Below are positions 19,652 through 26,960 of a stretch of 27,547 bases of DNA, piece by piece. Numbering within the stretch: the stretch's first letter is position 1; each line of letters begins with the position of its first letter. Source of the DNA: a virus. The notes below the pieces were generated by a model. It ran no database searches. It had not been told where the DNA came from and worked only from the letters and a program-made list of their open reading frames with translations. The stretch covers positions 1-27,547 of the IMG/VR virus record IMGVR_UViG_3300008120_000935; one strand, written 5' to 3'. The translations under genes were made by a program, and so were the position numbers.

Positions 19652-20058
19652 CGCATGTAGAGAGAGGCGGTCGTCGGTAGAGGGCCGACCAAGTCGGCTG
19701 TGAGGCTGCGGAACGGAATGTCACCGCCGACGGCATCCAGCACAGTGTTCAGCTGCAGGACCGCCGCGGTCTCGTCCCAGCTGCCGGAACTCACCTGCCC
19801 GACATAGCGGTAGAGCTGCCGGCTTGGCTCCAGCAACTTGACATCCACCTTGGCCACCCACTGGTTGTCGATGGCCTGCCGGACCCAGGAGCGGGTGAGT
19901 GCCGTGTTGGGGAAGATGAGGTTCGCCGTCACGTTGTCACCCTGCCTGTTGATGACGCCGCCCGAGAAGGAGAACGGCAGGAAGTTGGCCGCCTGGATGC
20001 TGTGGTTCTGGAAGGTCAGGTTGTTGAGCGTCAGCTCGTGGCCAAAGATCAGTTCCAT
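19648..20058 (-). CDS. minor tail protein (L-like position), 136 aa
   Basis: Product MELIFGHELTLNNLTFQNHS, FSFSGGVINRQGDNVTANLI, FPNTALTRSWVRQAI, YRYVGQVSSGSWDETAAVLQ, LNTVLDAVGGDIP. This matches, from memory, a well conserved minor tail protein of cyanobacterial siphophages (GGVINR.GDN..A.L.FPN..L.R.W....; YVGQVSSG.WDET...L.LNTVLDAVGGD.P). It occupies the place of lambda M/L: after the tape measure gene and before the NlpC/P60 and J-like genes. It likely forms the distal tail adaptor. ATG at 20058 overlaps the tape measure stop (TGATG); its own stop is in a GTGA overlap. Confidence 0.82.
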   Translation of the reverse strand: MELIFGHELTLNNLTFQNHSIQAANFLPFSFSGGVINRQGDNVTANLIFPNTALTRSWVRQAIDNQWVAKVDVKLLEPSRQLYRYVGQVSSGSWDETAAVLQLNTVLDAVGGDIPFRSLTADLVGPLPTTASLYMR

Positions 20059-23000
20059 CAGACTCCGATCTTGCGGCGGGTGGAAGGTGAGTGCTGCATC
20101 CGACGCAGCGTCTGCTGCTCGGCCTGCTTGGCGGTGCTGCGCATCCCAGAGGTGAACTGGTCTTGGGTCACGTAGTTGCGACCCTCGAACTGCAGCACAG
20201 GACCGGTGGTGACGCTGATGGTCATAGCGCCTGAGCCGCCGGTGGAGGACGGTCCACCGGTGGGATCGGCTCCGTCAATCACGGAGCTGCCTCGAGAGCC
20301 CGCATTCCAACGGGCCATGGCGCTGCCCATCTTGCTGCTGGGAATGACGTACTCGCTCTCGCCACCCTCGCCGATCATGGCCTTCGTGGGGCCGGTGACG
20401 AAGCCGCCGGTGGCCATGAAGCTCGGGGCGCCTGGCATGAACATTGAGCTGCCGCCGCCCACACCGGCGCCAGGCATGGCCACCGGACCAGCGCCGCTGA
20501 AGCCGCCGAAGCCGCCAGCGGCGCTGCCGAGGAAGTTCATCGCCAGGCCGATCACCTGCATCTCGATGTACTTGGCGATCATCTGGGCCGCCATGTCGAG
20601 GAAGTGACCCGCAATGCTCTGGAAGGCGTCAGCCAGGGCCTGCTGCGCTGACTTGGCGCCGCTGGCCACATCCTTGAATGCCGTGCCAAAAGCGCTGCCG
20701 ATAGCGTTGGCGCCAGCGATCACTTGGTTCACCGGGTCCAGCAGCGCGTTCAGCTCGCCTTGCACCTTGTCGTAGGCGCCCTGCAGGCGCTCACCAGGGG
20801 ACTGCGCTTGCTTGGCGCCTTCTTCGGCTTTCTCCTTTTGCTTGTCGAGCAAGCCGAGTTTCTCCTTGAGGAGAGCCAGCTCTTTCTCCAGCTCCGTCGT
20901 GATTTGCCCTCTTGCCTTGGCTTCGGCAATGGCGGCCTCGACGCTGAGCACCTCGTAGTCGAGAAGCTCCTTGGCTTGGGTGTAGGTCTGCTTGATCTTG
21001 GCCAGCTGCTCGGCTAGGGCAGGCAACACTCCGTCCGCCAGCAAGGCTCCGTACTCCCGCTGGTAGGCCGCCGAGTTCTTCTGGTCCTCGACGATTTCGT
21101 TCATCGGACCGAGCGCCTTGCGCAGCACCTCGTCAAAGCGCTGTTGCAGTTCTACAGCGGCCTTCTGGTCGCCCAGTTCTTTCCAGCGCTTGACCAGCTC
21201 CATTGAGCTGATCTCGATGGACTTGGATTTATCCACCAGGGCGGTGTAAACGTTGAGTACGCCGCTGATGTCCGCCAGCTTGGGAGCCGCCGGCAGCGCT
21301 GGGATGCCTGGAGCTGTGGGTGCAGTAGGTGCAGTAGCTGCGGTGGCACCCGTGGCACCAGTCACCACCACCGGCACTGGCGCAGTAGACGCCCCAGGCC
21401 GCTGGAACAGCGGCGACATCTGGGTGGTGGCTGCGGTCTTGCCGCCCATCAGGGCAGCCAGTCCCGGTGTCAGGGGCACCTTCCCGCCAGGCGTGGGGAC
21501 ATGGAGGTGGGTGGCGTGGCCACGGGGGTCGCGCTCGGGACCGAACAGCTGGTTGCCGAACGCCCCCGTTGCACGGAGCTTCCGCTCCATTTCAATGGTC
21601 TTCTGGACGTAGTTGCGGTCGTACTGCGGGGCTGTGAAGCCCATGTCCATCGCGTTGAGCATGTGGTTGGGCGTTCTATGCCCGGCGTTTGTGAAGTCGC
21701 CGCTGGTGCGCCCCATGCCTTGGCTGATCAGCCACTTACGCAACACTTCCTTGTCGATGTAGCCGCCGGCGGTCATCGGAGCACCCCCACCTCCGCTGGT
21801 GAGTGGCGTGGCTGCGGCCTGGACCTGCTGGAGGTCGCCAGTCTGCTTGGCCAGCTCGTAGGTGCGCTGCGCCATGGCGTACTGGTACTCCGCTACCTTC
21901 ACCTTGTAGTCCTCAGCCGAGCGGGTCAGCTGCAGGTACGTCTTGGCAACGTCGCGCTGGTAGTCGCTGGCCTGGAGCTGCAGGTCGGCTGACTTCTTGG
22001 AGACATCGAGGCGGAACTTGGTGCCGTCCCGGTCGATGTCGGCCAGCTTGAGCTTCAGCTCGCGCTCCTTTTGCGCCAGATCGGCTTCACCCTCGCCGCG
22101 CACCCGCAGGTACTCACGGGCGGCGGTGACCAGTTGGCTGCCCTCAAACTTGCTGGTGGGGTCGCCCTTGCCAATCTGAGAGAGGCTCAGGTCCAGGCGT
22201 TCAATGCTGAGCTGAGCCTGACGGCGCAGGTTGTCGCTTTCAGCCCTGGCAAGCTCCTGTCGCTTGGAGAAGATCGCGTCTTCGATGCTCTGGCGCAGTT
22301 CGATGGAGCTGCGCTCAATGTCGGCGGCCTTGCGCCGCAGTCCGTAGACCGCCTCTTCAGCGTTGAGTCGCAGGTCCACAGCGCTGCGCTCCAGGTCGAT
22401 GCCCTGCTGGCGCAACTGGCGCTCCTGCGCGGCGGACTGCACCCGCCGGTCGATCTCTGCCTCTTGGCCTTTCAGGTCGAGAGCTGGTGGCTGGGCACCT
22501 TTGCCTGCGTTAATGCCCAGTCCTTGCAAGCCTCGGAATACGCCAGGAAGGTCAACACCTGTCAGTGCTTTGGACGTGGACGACAACAAGAAGTCCGTCA
22601 TCCACTTGGGCGGGCGGACTTTGGCCAGCTCTCTAAGCGCACCAGCAAAGATATTCAGAATCGTCACTGCGCCTGTGACGGCAGGGATCACCTCGGATTG
22701 CAGTGCTGCTACAGCTTGATCCCATTGCGCGGTTAGCTTCTTCTGTTCGGCGTAGAGGGCGAAGAGCGACTGCGTGGTGTCAGTACCGAGACGGCGGTTT
22801 AGCTCTGCAATAACTCTGGCCTGGGCCTCGTAGCCGCGACCTGACGCGCTGAGTTGTTCGACGGTGTAGCGCAAACTGTCGCTCACCTTTAGCCCAGCAG
22901 CCTCCATGGCTGCCAGCGCGTCAGTCGGCGACTTCAGCGAGCTGGCCAAGTCCGTCAGGGACTTGGCGTAAGTGTCCAGGATCTGGCCAATGGCGCTGGT

Positions 23001-23276
23001 GAAGACCCCAATCATTGGGTTCTTGCCACCCAGCGCCCCACCGGCAAAGCCGCCGATGGTGGCCAGAGGGCCGGCACCGAACAGCAGTGGGAAGGCGCCG
23101 GAAACCAGGGTGTTCTCCACCCGGCCCTGCAGGTCCTCGCCCTTCTTCTTCTTGTTGCGCAGGTCGGCCAGTTGGGTTTGTCGGCGGGCCACCGTCAGGG
23201 CACGTTCGTCCAGCTGGGCCGCTTTGATCCGCTCGGCGTTTTGTTGGCGCAGGCGCAGCCTGTTCACGCAGGGCAC
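20058..23276 (-). CDS. tape measure protein, C-terminal part (separated by a net +1 frame change)
   Basis: Reading continues the tape measure protein in the frame one base downstream of its N-terminal part. Coherent sequence starts near LRLRQQNAERIKAA (nt ~23258); the nominal GTG at 23276 has no support as a real start. Features in this numbering: hydrophobic glycine-rich segment FPLLFGAGPLATIGGFAGGA (62-81), lambda-H-like region SPTDALAAMEAAGLKVSDSL (116-135), long coiled coil (270-480), a metallopeptidase-like insert (~503-600; H538, D544, H590, H592), a Thr/Ala/Pro spacer (639-660), a second coiled coil (690-830), a hydrophobic part (860-915), and the C-terminus TGGFVTGPTKAMIGEGGESE, YVIPSSKMGSAMARW typical of tape measures. 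Together with the N-terminal part it spans ~1,550 residues, setting the length of a long flexible tail and passing into the host envelope during DNA ejection. Confidence 0.88.
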   Translation of the reverse strand: MPCVNRLRLRQQNAERIKAAQLDERALTVARRQTQLADLRNKKKKGEDLQGRVENTLVSGAFPLLFGAGPLATIGGFAGGALGGKNPMIGVFTSAIGQILDTYAKSLTDLASSLKSPTDALAAMEAAGLKVSDSLRYTVEQLSASGRGYEAQARVIAELNRRLGTDTTQSLFALYAEQKKLTAQWDQAVAALQSEVIPAVTGAVTILNIFAGALRELAKVRPPKWMTDFLLSSTSKALTGVDLPGVFRGLQGLGINAGKGAQPPALDLKGQEAEIDRRVQSAAQERQLRQQGIDLERSAVDLRLNAEEAVYGLRRKAADIERSSIELRQSIEDAIFSKRQELARAESDNLRRQAQLSIERLDLSLSQIGKGDPTSKFEGSQLVTAAREYLRVRGEGEADLAQKERELKLKLADIDRDGTKFRLDVSKKSADLQLQASDYQRDVAKTYLQLTRSAEDYKVKVAEYQYAMAQRTYELAKQTGDLQQVQAAATPLTSGGGGAPMTAGGYIDKEVLRKWLISQGMGRTSGDFTNAGHRTPNHMLNAMDMGFTAPQYDRNYVQKTIEMERKLRATGAFGNQLFGPERDPRGHATHLHVPTPGGKVPLTPGLAALMGGKTAATTQMSPLFQRPGASTAPVPVVVTGATGATAATAPTAPTAPGIPALPAAPKLADISGVLNVYTALVDKSKSIEISSMELVKRWKELGDQKAAVELQQRFDEVLRKALGPMNEIVEDQKNSAAYQREYGALLADGVLPALAEQLAKIKQTYTQAKELLDYEVLSVEAAIAEAKARGQITTELEKELALLKEKLGLLDKQKEKAEEGAKQAQSPGERLQGAYDKVQGELNALLDPVNQVIAGANAIGSAFGTAFKDVASGAKSAQQALADAFQSIAGHFLDMAAQMIAKYIEMQVIGLAMNFLGSAAGGFGGFSGAGPVAMPGAGVGGGSSMFMPGAPSFMATGGFVTGPTKAMIGEGGESEYVIPSSKMGSAMARWNAGSRGSSVIDGADPTGGPSSTGGSGAMTISVTTGPVLQFEGRNYVTQDQFTSGMRSTAKQAEQQTLRRMQHSPSTRRKIGV

Positions 23277-24711
23277 TGGTGCGGTTCCGCACCACCTGCA
23301 GCGACTTGCCCTCCAGGATCGTGCGCTGTTGGGCCTGTTGCAGCAACGGCTTGGCAGCTTCGGCGGCCTGTTTGTAGGTGGCAGCAGCGTTCTGGGCGGC
23401 CCGGTAACCCGGTTGGGCCGTCATGGTGTTGCCGCCGGGGAACAGCTGTCCGCCAGCCGGAACTTGGTTCAGTCCGTATGCCTTGCCTTGGAGGGCAGCG
23501 CTGCGTTCACGGGCTATCTGGGCGCTGCGGTTGTTCGCCCGCATCTCCTCCAAGCGAGCCTGGATCTGGCTCTTGTTGCCCAGCACGCCGGCTTTGCTGG
23601 AACGCTCCACGCGGGTGAGGTTGTCGGCCCATGCCTTGGTCTGGGCTGCCACCTCCGCAGCCAGACGGGCGTAGTCCTCCAGCTCGGTGTTGAGGCGGGA
23701 CTGCTCGGCCGCCATCTGTTTCTGGGCGTTGCGACCGGAGGTGAGCAGTGCCATCCGCCGCGACACCTCGGTGTCCCGAACGTCCTGGGTCTGCAAGCCC
23801 TTGGCCTGCCGAACCAGATCGTTGATCTTCTTCTGCTCCACCGTCTGGAGCTTCATCGCGGAGGCCAGCTGCTGCGCGGCCTCCCATGCCTGGACGGTGC
23901 TGGACTCAAACTCGCCGGACTGCCTTACCGCGTCGCGAAGCTGCGCGTTGAGCTGGTTGAGGGATGACCCCTGCAGCAGCGCCTCGAACGCATTTCCTGC
24001 CGAGATGACACTGCCTTCCAGCTTCTCCGCTGCAGAGGCAGCGTTCCGGATTCCGGCGGTGAGTTCAGCAATCTTTTGGGTCGCTTGCGTACCAACCGCA
24101 GTGTTGATTGCCTTGCCGGCAGTGATGGCCGCAGGCGCGAACGCCATGGCAGCAACCGCCGCCAAGCCCCAGCTGTTCGGAAGATCCTTCAGGTAGAGCA
24201 GCAGCTCCTGAATAGCGTTGCTACCGCCAACGGCTGCTTTGGCTGCGGTATCAATGCCAGCGCCGACACCAGCAATGGCGGCACCCGCGCCTCCCAAGCC
24301 TCCAGCAAGGGCAGTGGTCTTGGCCACCAGCCCTGTTAGGGCAGTCGTCAGGGCGCCAACGCCCTTTACCGCTGGTGCGGTGGCAGGCGCCATCTTGGCA
24401 AGTGCCAGACCTAAAGCACCGACGCCTCCACGTATTGCGCCACTCTTTATCTGGCTGTCCAGATTGCGAGCAGCCATCGCAAACTTATTGACCTGCGCAG
24501 CACCTACACCAAATGCTTCGCCGGTACGTTTCAATGCAGCGGGCAAGTTCCCGCTGATGGCGTTCTTTAATCCCGCGCCACTACCAAACAGCTCAAACTT
24601 CAGCCCACCTGCTCGCTGTAGCTGTTCAAGCTGCCCGGTCAGCTTGTCCAGCTGGCGTTCTGCCTGCTTGGTGTCGGCAGTGACCTTGATGTTCTGGATG
24701 AAGTCAGCCAA
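22921..24711 (-). CDS. tape measure protein, N-terminal part (coherent to about 23260)
   Basis: TTG start at 24711 (TTG GCT GAC TTC), with GAGG about 12 nt upstream; no ATG is available. The first 484 residues are typical tape measure: MADFIQNIKVTADTKQAERQ, a helical start, hydrophobic Gly/Ala-rich stretches (VGALTTALTGLVAKTTALAG, AAVAAMAFAPAAITAGKAIN) and long coiled coils up to RNRTSALREQ. After that this frame turns into Pro/Arg/Gly-rich sequence (APAPTKRRADQSGPAGRTC and onward) that is plainly an out-of-frame read of the continuing coiled coil in the neighbouring frame. The coding content therefore moves to the other frame at about 23259. As deposited, the full tape measure would need a frameshift, or the base is an assembly or sequencing insertion. 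It follows the chaperone genes after a terminator-like hairpin. Confidence 0.85.
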   Translation of the reverse strand: MADFIQNIKVTADTKQAERQLDKLTGQLEQLQRAGGLKFELFGSGAGLKNAISGNLPAALKRTGEAFGVGAAQVNKFAMAARNLDSQIKSGAIRGGVGALGLALAKMAPATAPAVKGVGALTTALTGLVAKTTALAGGLGGAGAAIAGVGAGIDTAAKAAVGGSNAIQELLLYLKDLPNSWGLAAVAAMAFAPAAITAGKAINTAVGTQATQKIAELTAGIRNAASAAEKLEGSVISAGNAFEALLQGSSLNQLNAQLRDAVRQSGEFESSTVQAWEAAQQLASAMKLQTVEQKKINDLVRQAKGLQTQDVRDTEVSRRMALLTSGRNAQKQMAAEQSRLNTELEDYARLAAEVAAQTKAWADNLTRVERSSKAGVLGNKSQIQARLEEMRANNRSAQIARERSAALQGKAYGLNQVPAGGQLFPGGNTMTAQPGYRAAQNAAATYKQAAEAAKPLLQQAQQRTILEGKSLQVVRNRTSALREQAAPAPTKRRADQSGPAGRTCPDGGPPTNPTGRPAQQEEEGRGPAGPGGEHPGFRRLPTAVRCRPSGHHRRLCRWGAGWQEPNDWGLHQRHWPDPGHLRQVPDGLGQLAEVAD

Positions 24712-24754: not shown

Positions 24755-24781
24755 AAAAAGCGGGCCTACCGGCGGGCCCGC
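24755..24781 (-). terminator. intrinsic terminator/attenuator between chaperones and tape measure
   Basis: On the minus strand, a perfect 7-bp GC stem (arm GCGGGCC with arm GGCCCGC, 8-nt loop) is followed at once by TTTTT. The stop codon TAG of the GT-like gene (24768-24766) lies across the loop and stem, so a ribosome finishing that gene would melt the hairpin. Partial read-through would allow tape measure expression. Confidence 0.75.
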
Positions 24782-24975
24782 CTCATGGCTTTCTCCTGCT
24801 GGTCGTTCAGATAACCGAAGTAGGCGCTCCAGCCCAACAACTCCTCGGGAGTTACTTCCGCCCAGAGGCGGGTGAGGGTCATCCCGAGTTCCTTGGCCAC
24901 CGCGAACGACAGCAGTAGCCATTGATCTTTCTCAAGCTCCTTTTGCAGTGCTTTTGGGCTCCAGGGGCTCCTCAT
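24766..24975 (-). CDS. tail assembly chaperone, GT-like extension (reached by frameshift)
   Basis: 69 codons from an ATG at 24975, but probably translated as the T-extension of the upstream chaperone: from the CCC-AAA site (24958-24953) the frame reads KALQKELEKDQWLLLSFAVA, KELGMTLTRLWAEVTPEELL, GWSAYFGYLNDQQEKAMRRA. The 'L....L....(T)..EL.GW.AYF.L...Q.E.A.R.A' pattern is that of GT-type tail assembly chaperone C-termini in siphophages with lambda-like tails. It binds the tape measure protein and tail tube subunits during assembly and is absent from the virion. The frame lies one base downstream of the first chaperone's frame. Independent initiation at the internal ATG cannot be excluded. Confidence 0.75.
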   Translation of the reverse strand: MRSPWSPKALQKELEKDQWLLLSFAVAKELGMTLTRLWAEVTPEELLGWSAYFGYLNDQQEKAMRRARR

Positions 24976-25294
24976 CCTCCGCGCTGGTGAGGACGGCGAG
25001 CATCAGCTTTTGGAGGTCCTCGTCGCGTACCTCATGCTTCAGCTCGGCCAGGTCGGCCGGCATGAACAGGCGCTGGCCGGCTTCGTCGAGGGCCTTGTCC
25101 ACCAGCAGCTGGAGGGCGAAGGCGTTGGCGTCGTCACCCTTGGCGGTGCGCTGGGCCTTGTCCCGCTCGGCCATGGTCAGCGGCCGTGCCCAGAACGTGA
25201 AGGTGCTGCCATCGTGCAGTTCCACGTCCTTGCGCGACGGCACCAGGTTGGCGGCGTTCTTCAGACGGTCGATGGCGCGGATGGCAGATGCCAT
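24932..25294 (-). CDS. tail assembly chaperone, G-like
   Basis: 120 aa, ATG at 25294. MASAIRAIDRLKNAANLVPS, RKDVELHDGSTFTFWARPLT, MAERDKAQRTAKGDDANAFA, then LQLLVDKALDEAGQRLF and an acidic C-terminus (AEDEEPLEPKSTAKGA). The short N-terminal beta part, the 'PLTMAERDKA' helix start and the acidic helical end fit G-like tail assembly chaperones, which sit between the major tail and tape measure genes as here. Near its 3' end the codons CCC-AAA-A (24958 onward) form a candidate +1 slip site joining it to the GT-like frame. It is preceded by a strong terminator 45 nt upstream, so it needs read-through or its own promoter; TATACT at 25324-25319 is a weak -10 candidate without a convincing -35. Confidence 0.78.
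   Translation of the reverse strand: MASAIRAIDRLKNAANLVPSRKDVELHDGSTFTFWARPLTMAERDKAQRTAKGDDANAFALQLLVDKALDEAGQRLFMPADLAELKHEVRDEDLQKLMLAVLTSAEDEEPLEPKSTAKGA
24951..24958 (-). promoter_or_regulatory. candidate programmed +1 frameshift site
   Basis: Coding-strand CCCAAAAG, with CCC as in-frame codon 113 of the G-like chaperone. A forward slip of the Pro-tRNA from CCC to CCA moves the ribosome into the GT-like frame, which begins its coherent sequence exactly there. +1 slips at CCC codons are known in phage structural genes (Listeria phage PSA). Confidence 0.55.
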
Positions 25295-25389: not shown

Positions 25390-26481
25390 TCAGGCGAGGC
25401 TGAGGTTGAACAGGTGGCTGGGGGGACCGGAGAGGCTGAAATTGATCGAAGCCACGATGGCATCGCTGGTGTTCACCGAGATGGAGAAACCCTCCAGCGA
25501 GACGGGTGCCTCGATGTAGGAGGACGCGGTGTCATCCATGATGCCGCCAGAGCCTTCGATGGCGTTGACGTACAGCTTCACCGTGGCGCCGGCCTGGGAC
25601 TTCAGCAGCGAGTTGGCGATCAGGCGGCTGCTCAGGCTGGTGTTGTCACCAGAGAACAGGACGCTCATCGAACCAGAACCGCTGGCGTAACCAGGGATGG
25701 TGGTACGGAAGCTGGCGTATTTGTCAGCTTCACCACCAGTGCTACAAGGCAGGGTGGTGATGTCGATCGATTCACGGCTGAAGTCCAGGCTCCATTCCTG
25801 AACCATGCAGGTCACGCTGTACTCGGAGTAACCGACGTTGATGTGACCGGTGGTGTTTTCCCGTGCGGTGGTCAGCGTGGCAGTGCCGCTGAAGGCAGTA
25901 CCGGGAGCGGTCTTGTCGATCGCATCGCCAGCAGCGTTGCGGCCGCCGCTCAGGGCAATGGTGCCGGCGCCGGTGGTGTAGCCCTTGCCCGCCACGGTGA
26001 CCGTGATGGCACCAGCGTTCAGAGCACCGCCGGCAGGAACCACAACAGTGGCGCGGGCGCTGGACTCGCTGCCACCACCGATTGTCTGCACCAGGCGGAC
26101 ATCGGTGTAGGTGCCGGGGGTGTAGCCCGCGCCAGCGGTGGCGGCAGCCAGGGAGGCGATACCGGAGCCAGCTTGGCCGCCAGCGCCGGCAAGGGTGATC
26201 GGCACGCCGCCCTTGGTGGCGGACACCGCGATGCTGGTCTTGGTGACATCCACCACGAAATACTTCGTGTTGGCGGTCAGCGCGGTGTCGAGCACACCAG
26301 CACCTTCCGTCTTGAACACCACGGGGTCGCCCACGCGGTAGTCATGGTTGCCAGGCACGGTCAGGTACTTGCCGGCAGGGAAGTCAGTTGCGTCTGACAG
26401 ACAGAACTGAACACCTGCAGGCTTGAAGGTGATCAGACCATCGGAGCCGGTGAGGGCGGATGTAGTGCAGTTGACGGCCAC
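25390..26481 (-). CDS. major tail tube protein with inserted domains
   Basis: 363 aa from a GTG. The tube fold is at the ends: residues ~1-30 and ~215-363 (MVQEWSLDFSRESIDITTLP, IPGYASGSGSMSVLFSGDN, SSYIEAPVSLEGFSISVNTS, ending AIVASINFSLSGP). Residues ~45-95 (DYRVGDPVVFKTEGAGVLDT, KYFVVDVTKTSIAVSATKGG) and ~117-185 (GAGYTPGTYTDVRLVQTIGG, VTVAGKGYTTGAGTIALSGG) are two inserted beta modules of the kind seen in many phage structural proteins, probably displayed on the tail surface. Position supports the call: after the terminator/completion genes, before the chaperones and tape measure, and followed by a strong terminator as expected for an abundant structural protein. Confidence 0.85.
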   Translation of the reverse strand: MAVNCTTSALTGSDGLITFKPAGVQFCLSDATDFPAGKYLTVPGNHDYRVGDPVVFKTEGAGVLDTALTANTKYFVVDVTKTSIAVSATKGGVPITLAGAGGQAGSGIASLAAATAGAGYTPGTYTDVRLVQTIGGGSESSARATVVVPAGGALNAGAITVTVAGKGYTTGAGTIALSGGRNAAGDAIDKTAPGTAFSGTATLTTARENTTGHINVGYSEYSVTCMVQEWSLDFSRESIDITTLPCSTGGEADKYASFRTTIPGYASGSGSMSVLFSGDNTSLSSRLIANSLLKSQAGATVKLYVNAIEGSGGIMDDTASSYIEAPVSLEGFSISVNTSDAIVASINFSLSGPPSHLFNLSLA

Positions 26482-26557: not shown

Positions 26558-26960
26558 GAACCCGCAGCTCAGCCGTGTCAGCTGGTGGGGTCTGCCGTCC
26601 AGGGAGGTGAAGGTGGGGCCGTTGATCTCGTTGATGCGCCCGCTCACCACATCGGGAGTCGTGGTGTCGAGGTGGAGGGGCAGGTTGTTCAGGGCGAAGG
26701 TCACCACGCTGGCGATCTCGCCCGCGACCCTTAGGGGTGTAGATCTCTACCACCAGGGAGCCGCGAATTCGCTCCATCGGTCCGCAGAAGGTCTGCTCGG
26801 TGGTCGGTCCAAAGTTCACCCGCATCAACACGAACTCAGCCTCCGCGTCGTTATCGACGTAGGTCTGGTTGTCAGTGAAGACGGGGATGGTGGCGTCGTA
26901 GGTGGTGATGCCGTCCTCGACGGGCTGCTCAAAGAAGCGGCGGATGGCTTGCAGGGTCAC
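26540..26960 (-). CDS. U-like tail terminator protein, frame broken near 26728-26737
   Basis: GTG start at 26960 in a GTGA overlap. Frame 1 gives TLQAIRRFFEQPVEDGITTY, DATIPVFTDNQTYVDNDAEA, RIRGSLVVEIYTPKG, then degenerates into Arg/Pro/His-rich sequence. From ~26731 the frame one base downstream gives VAGEIASVVTFALNNLPLHL, VVSGRINEINGPTFTSLDGR, PHQLTRLSCGFQAAYS and a TAG at 26542-26540. The joined ~139-aa protein has the look of a tail terminator/completion protein (SLVVEIYTP.G.G......; C-terminal 'RL.CGFQA'). It would cap the tail tube before head joining. Left uncorrected, the first frame runs on to 26433, past the stop hairpin and into the major tail gene. Either the sequence has an extra base in CCCCTAAGGG or the gene is truly disrupted. 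Confidence 0.72.

Follow-up and report, generated by a model that had tools for sequence, protein, structure and literature searches.

A probable +1 ribosomal frameshift at a conserved AAA_AGC site in the G/GT tail assembly chaperone genes of a cyanophage-like virus

The sites of frameshifting in phage tail assembly chaperones were reportedly first listed, in all likelihood, by Xu et al. in 2004. That study lies outside the literature examined here, none of which was found to describe AAA_AG as conserved. Tail chaperones are known to use -1, -2 or +1 shifts depending on the phage (Atkins et al. 2016, PMC5009743), and for one archaeal virus chaperone a +1 shift has been called 'very likely' (PMC5009743). 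The chaperone shift of the mycobacteriophage Karhdo has been reported as +1 (PMC10793310). The +1 shifts of Listeria phage PSA are placed in capsid and tail-shaft genes (PMC5009743), so PSA does not serve as the chaperone precedent for which it had been taken in an initial annotation of this DNA. According to the paper on the prediction tool PRFect (2024), which searches for three or four identical bases in a row, a general +1 motif is not known (PMC10885494).

The junctions of mycobacteriophage chaperone genes annotated as +1 were compared (loci L411 (Che8), L492-L497 and L499). AAA AGT stands at the junction in Che8, Karhdo, JangDynasty, BIB3, Redi, Baka and Necropolis alike, and the lengths of the joined genes leave 1 modulo 3. 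The same AAA AGT was found in 80 of 80 Che8-like IMG/VR loci and in the prophage prophiGD90-1, where two ORFs are annotated. The frame and the invariance of the motif suggest AAA AGT as the place of the shift in the mycobacteriophages. Since mycobacteriophages annotated as +1 carry AAA_AGT, +1 frameshifting in chaperones is itself already known; what is new in the present locus is a sharper +1 site and a switch of direction.

The DNA analysed here (the window) comprises 27547 bases and is a linear virus record in IMG/VR. On its minus strand the major tail protein gene is followed by a G-like ORF, a GT-like ORF and the tape measure gene. The features are as follows.

25390..26481, minus strand: major tail protein gene, the upstream context (phrog_1407, E=2.7e-7)
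24932..25294, minus strand: G-like tail assembly chaperone ORF, 120 aa (phrog_344, E=5.5e-7; top PDB match 2ob9)
24956..24958, minus strand: CCC codon before the slip site, taken as the slip codon in the initial annotation; it varies in relatives
24950..24955, minus strand: putative slip site AAA_AGC (AAA in 59/59 lineage-1 and 76/76 lineage-2 sequences), where the P-site AAA would re-pair at +1 within the AAAA run
24932..24934, minus strand: G stop codon TGA, read from the sequence, the end of the unshifted product
24766..24957, minus strand: all-helical GT-like extension of 63 aa (counted from P/K) in the +1 frame, a protein conserved in more than 100 loci
20058..24711, minus strand: tape measure protein gene, the downstream context (phrog_37649 and other tape measure families), intact in contig L038

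Two overlapping ORFs, G and GT, thus lie between the major tail protein and tape measure genes, which is the arrangement of G/GT-type chaperones. The gene order, the overlapping ORFs and a fusion made by programmed frameshifting are features that the window would share with lambda G/GT and HK97, but lambda shifts by -1 (PMC5009743) and the window would shift by +1 at AAA_AGC. The mycobacteriophage +1 chaperones also have the +1 at the end of G, between the major tail protein and the tape measure. Their junction is TCG AAA AGT, or CCC AAA AGT in Baka and Necropolis, while that of the window is CCC AAA AGC; the window shares with this type both a +1 offset conserved in relatives and AAA_AG[Y] at the junction. 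The mycobacteriophages differ from the window in their larger G and GT and their different hosts, and BLASTP of Che8 G against window G gave no significant similarity. Listeria PSA and SPP1 resemble the window in having +1 frameshifts in phage structural genes, but these are capsid and tail-tube genes with a CCC slip before a stop or pseudoknot, and the CCC of the window is not conserved. The mycobacteriophage chaperones annotated as +1 are the closer precedent.

The proteins were folded as separate models. The AlphaFold model of G (mean pLDDT 76) was compared with the PDB by Foldseek, and the top match was the HK97 tail assembly chaperone 2ob9 (E=4e-4, probability 1.0). The AF2 model of GT (pLDDT 96) is a small all-helical domain. 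The first ORF (G) had no match in Pfam and NCBIfam, a search of the PDB by sequence gave no match, and a search of genome contigs for prophages with the GT profile A1 gave no confirmed match. The sequence and the predicted fold indicate that G is a tail assembly chaperone. The chaperone identity proposed in the initial annotation is upheld by the relatives, phrog_344, the HK97 2ob9 fold and the gene order, and by analogy the pair would act as chaperones of the lambda G/GT type.

The G frame ends, on the minus strand, with GAG CCC CTG GAG CCC AAA AGC ACT GCA AAA GGA GCT TGA, in which CCC occupies 24958-24956, AAA 24955-24953 and the G stop 24934-24932. The GT coding sense PKALQKELEK... starts one base downstream of the G frame, that is, at an offset of +1. 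Relatives were collected from IMG/VR using G and, separately, GT as queries. Among about 110 loci having both halves, about 60 of them with distinct junctions, the offset was +1 in nearly all, +2 (equivalent to -1) in about a dozen and 0 in none; the relatives span 28-100% identity, and 63 distinct junctions have the +1 offset. A divergent marine lineage showed +1 as well, in all of its about 80 loci, and a continuous G-GT frame was absent from every fetched locus. A lambda-type X_XXY_YYZ heptamer with GT at -1 was absent from the window and most relatives and present in a subset of relatives. The dicodon AAA-AG occurs elsewhere in the window ORFs at 2 of 6013 codon positions. By these sequence comparisons the +1 frame offset at the G/GT junction is confirmed as real and as more than chance. 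The direction proposed at the outset, +1 and not -1, is in accordance with this result, as relatives with as little as 28% identity keep the offset, and the relatives also support the approximate place of the shift.

Two neighbouring genes of the window are defective when scored against contigs of 99-100% identity. In the tape measure gene, which is one continuous frame in relatives, the window lacks at 23254 (minus strand) 23 nt found in the 99% identical L038, and the frame is broken; this gap probably arose in assembly or through a recent small deletion. In the tail terminator gene, 14 nt of L029, L002 and L039 are missing at 26720 (minus strand), and the frame is shifted. These small deletions made it worth testing whether a sequencing or assembly indel also causes the apparent frame change at the chaperone, which the initial annotation had named as the finding that would speak against frameshifting. 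The explanation fails there: the independent contigs L002, L029 and L038, which come from other samples, are identical to the window at the junction with the same +1 offset, and every close relative keeps this offset. An indel as the source of the offset is therefore extremely improbable.

Independent translation of GT from an internal start or by reinitiation, with no frameshift, was also weighed. An ATG does occur in the GT frame of the window, at 24975, and a non-frameshift mechanism for T4-like phages is suggested by the title of a work cited in PMC12859696. Against this, ATG, GTG or TTG near the junction in the GT frame was found in only 15 of 63 lineage-1 and 9 of 81 lineage-2 loci, a Shine-Dalgarno-like motif at start spacing was found in 0 of 63 lineage-1 loci, and the conservation of GT begins at the slip codon. 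GT has no conserved start of its own and is reachable only by frameshift, as in other members of this chaperone class, and its independent translation is considered very unlikely.

The codon at which the ribosome would slip was then examined from the variation among relatives. The codon before AAA in 59 distinct lineage-1 sequences was CCC in 30, ATG in 13, ACC in 9, AAC in 3 and another in four; the variants seen across the relatives are CCC, ACC, AAC, TCC, TTC, CTC, ATG, TTG and TTA. AAA itself was present in 59 of 59, followed by AGC (44), AGA (8) or AGT (7), and over both lineages only AGC, AGT, AGA and a single AGG were found after it. The flanking codons and amino acids vary while AAA_AG[C/T/A] stays universal. 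The third codon positions of the window are rich in GC (GC3 0.76) and lysine is encoded by AAG 201 times against 46 for AAA, yet the slip-site AAA is fixed. Where ATG, TTG or TTA precedes AAA, the GT frame reads TGA or TAA just ahead of AAAA, so the slip must be at AAA_A. These data argue for a slip at the AAAA run and not at CCC.

A +1 slip of P-site tRNA-Pro from CCC to CCA, the mechanism first suggested for this locus, would give the same fusion protein. The window does have CCC here, which is the sole proline codon used at that position (30 of 30 sequences when proline is encoded), and it is known to be +1-prone from Listeria PSA (PMC5009743) and SPP1 (PMC6316719). But a non-proline codon stands there in about half of the distinct lineage-1 sequences and in all of lineage 2 with the +1 offset kept, and the shifted codon would be a stop where ATG, TTG or TTA precedes AAA. 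Of the CCC-AAA whose conservation was to be checked, the AAA proved invariant and the CCC did not, being found in 30 of 59 lineage-1 and 0 of 76 lineage-2 sequences. A slip at CCC is therefore unlikely. A -2 frameshift reaches the GT frame as well and would add one extra lysine, and Mu chaperones use -2 (PMC5009743). In that case tRNA-Lys would have to re-pair on CCA or TGA, or tRNA-Ser on AAA, while with +1 the re-pairing, from AAA to AAA, is perfect in every member. As it offers no acceptable re-pairing in most members, -2 was rejected as highly improbable, and the initial remark that the site does not favour it held good, re-pairing two bases back being poor.

The G/GT pair is most probably expressed by programmed +1 ribosomal frameshifting, in which tRNA-Lys moves from AAA to AAA before AGC. 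Most ribosomes would read the G frame to the TGA at 24932. In a fraction of them, when the P-site AAA is paired with tRNA-Lys and AGC is the A-site codon, a slip of +1 along AAAA would take place. This slip from AAA to AAA would restore perfect pairing; GCA CTG CAA... would then be read, and a 175-aa G-GT fusion (...EEPLEPK-ALQKELEK...) would be produced. The occurrence and efficiency of the shift and the movement of the tRNA are predictions made at the sequence level. In a variant of this mechanism tRNA-Lys would enter out of frame at the +1 AAA with no P-site slip; the product is the same and the two are indistinguishable by sequence. If the pair acts as in lambda, the tape measure protein would be coated by G, and GT would recruit the tail tube subunit.

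Candidate stimulators of the shift were considered. For a downstream hairpin or pseudoknot the signal was weak and unconserved (z averaging about -0.8 across 60 nt). With 188 of the 6624 codons of the phage, AGC is common; this gives no support to a hungry-codon mechanism, and a rare A-site codon was rejected as stimulator. An RF2-like Shine-Dalgarno element, GGAG 3 nt before AAA in the window, was rejected as it is not conserved.

A marine sister lineage (lineage 2) comprises 80 IMG/VR loci and the marine virus AG-345-A17, with 76 distinct members. Its junction reads ...GAG GCT AAA GCC GAN TTR AAA AGC TAA with an offset of +1. In the 76 distinct members GCT, GCC and the slip-site AAA are fixed, and AGC is present in 72 of 76. 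GAG is used in 74 of 74 although GAA dominates elsewhere in those genomes, and GCT and GCC likewise stand against the usual codon preference. A purine block about 21 nt upstream of the slip site keeps its likeness to a Shine-Dalgarno sequence (AAGGAGGT, AGAGGAGT, AAGGGGGT) while the amino acids it encodes change. The constrained upstream element comprises AAGGAGGT and GGCUAAAGCC, and the pattern GGCTAAAGCCGANTTRAAAAGC has at least 120 matching stretches. These data show selection acting at the nucleotide level, centred on AAA_AGC. The marine loci L118-L198 show, about 30 nt upstream of the slip site, an ultra-conserved Shine-Dalgarno-like AAGGAGGT block, then GAG GCT AAA GCC and then TTR AAA AGC, with the synonymous sites fixed.

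The direction of the shift differs among relatives. One clade of the window family is at -1, with GAC CCA AAA TCC, GAC CCA AAA GCC or GAC CCA AAC TCC, and these junctions are the canonical heptamers C_CCA_AAA or C_CCA_AAC (C CCA AAC in L067). In the fusion, the +1 and -1 forms encode one and the same junction, D-P-K-[A/I/S/L]-L, and GAC CCC AAA AGC (+1) and GAC CCA AAA GCC (-1) are a small indel apart. In a tree of 76 G+GT proteins, made with the junction removed and with S-H1 and S-2L left out, at least 4 changes of the direction label are required, of which well-supported branches force 3. The direction has probably changed through small insertions and deletions at the same spot. The mycobacteriophage Cactus (L498) has an offset of -1 with C CCA AAC, like the switch seen in the window family. 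It is tentatively proposed that AAA_AG[C/T/A] may be a general natural +1 site of tail chaperones in the sequence-unrelated cyanophage-like and mycobacteriophage families, that small adjacent changes make it a -1 heptamer, and that the direction has switched repeatedly with both states in both families.

The G of the cyanophages KBS-S-2A and S-2L is homologous to that of the window, and GT lies in a different frame than G in KBS-S-2A, S-2L, S-H1 and the Prochlorococcus phages MED4-184/P-HS2, as it does in the window. These cyanophages differ from the window in that all are -1, with A AAA AAC (KBS-S-2A, S-H1), C CCA AAG (S-2L) or xxA AAG GAA (MED4-184). The site is kept in hundreds of genomes, relatives of the -1 type occur naturally with theirs at the same junction, and the upstream element of the marine lineage is highly constrained, which makes this a clean system for asking what sets the direction and efficiency of frameshifting in bacteria. 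It also offers a rule for annotation, the GT half being unjoined in every cyanophage record examined.

The records of KBS-S-2A (L116), S-2L (L117), MED4-184 (L199) and S-H1 (L202) have no joined GT annotation, and that of S-H1 has only a partial overlapping ORF for the GT half. The MED4-184 type (L211-L290 and L199; 81 loci) is at -1 with the non-canonical xxA AAG GAA TCY TAA and has RGGGGG right after the stop. The protein D6PII1 of an uncultured phage (BFVD), which at 179 aa has the length of the fusion, matches both the G and the GT models, so a single-frame relative may exist; it is possibly a naturally single-frame chaperone or the result of a sequencing indel.
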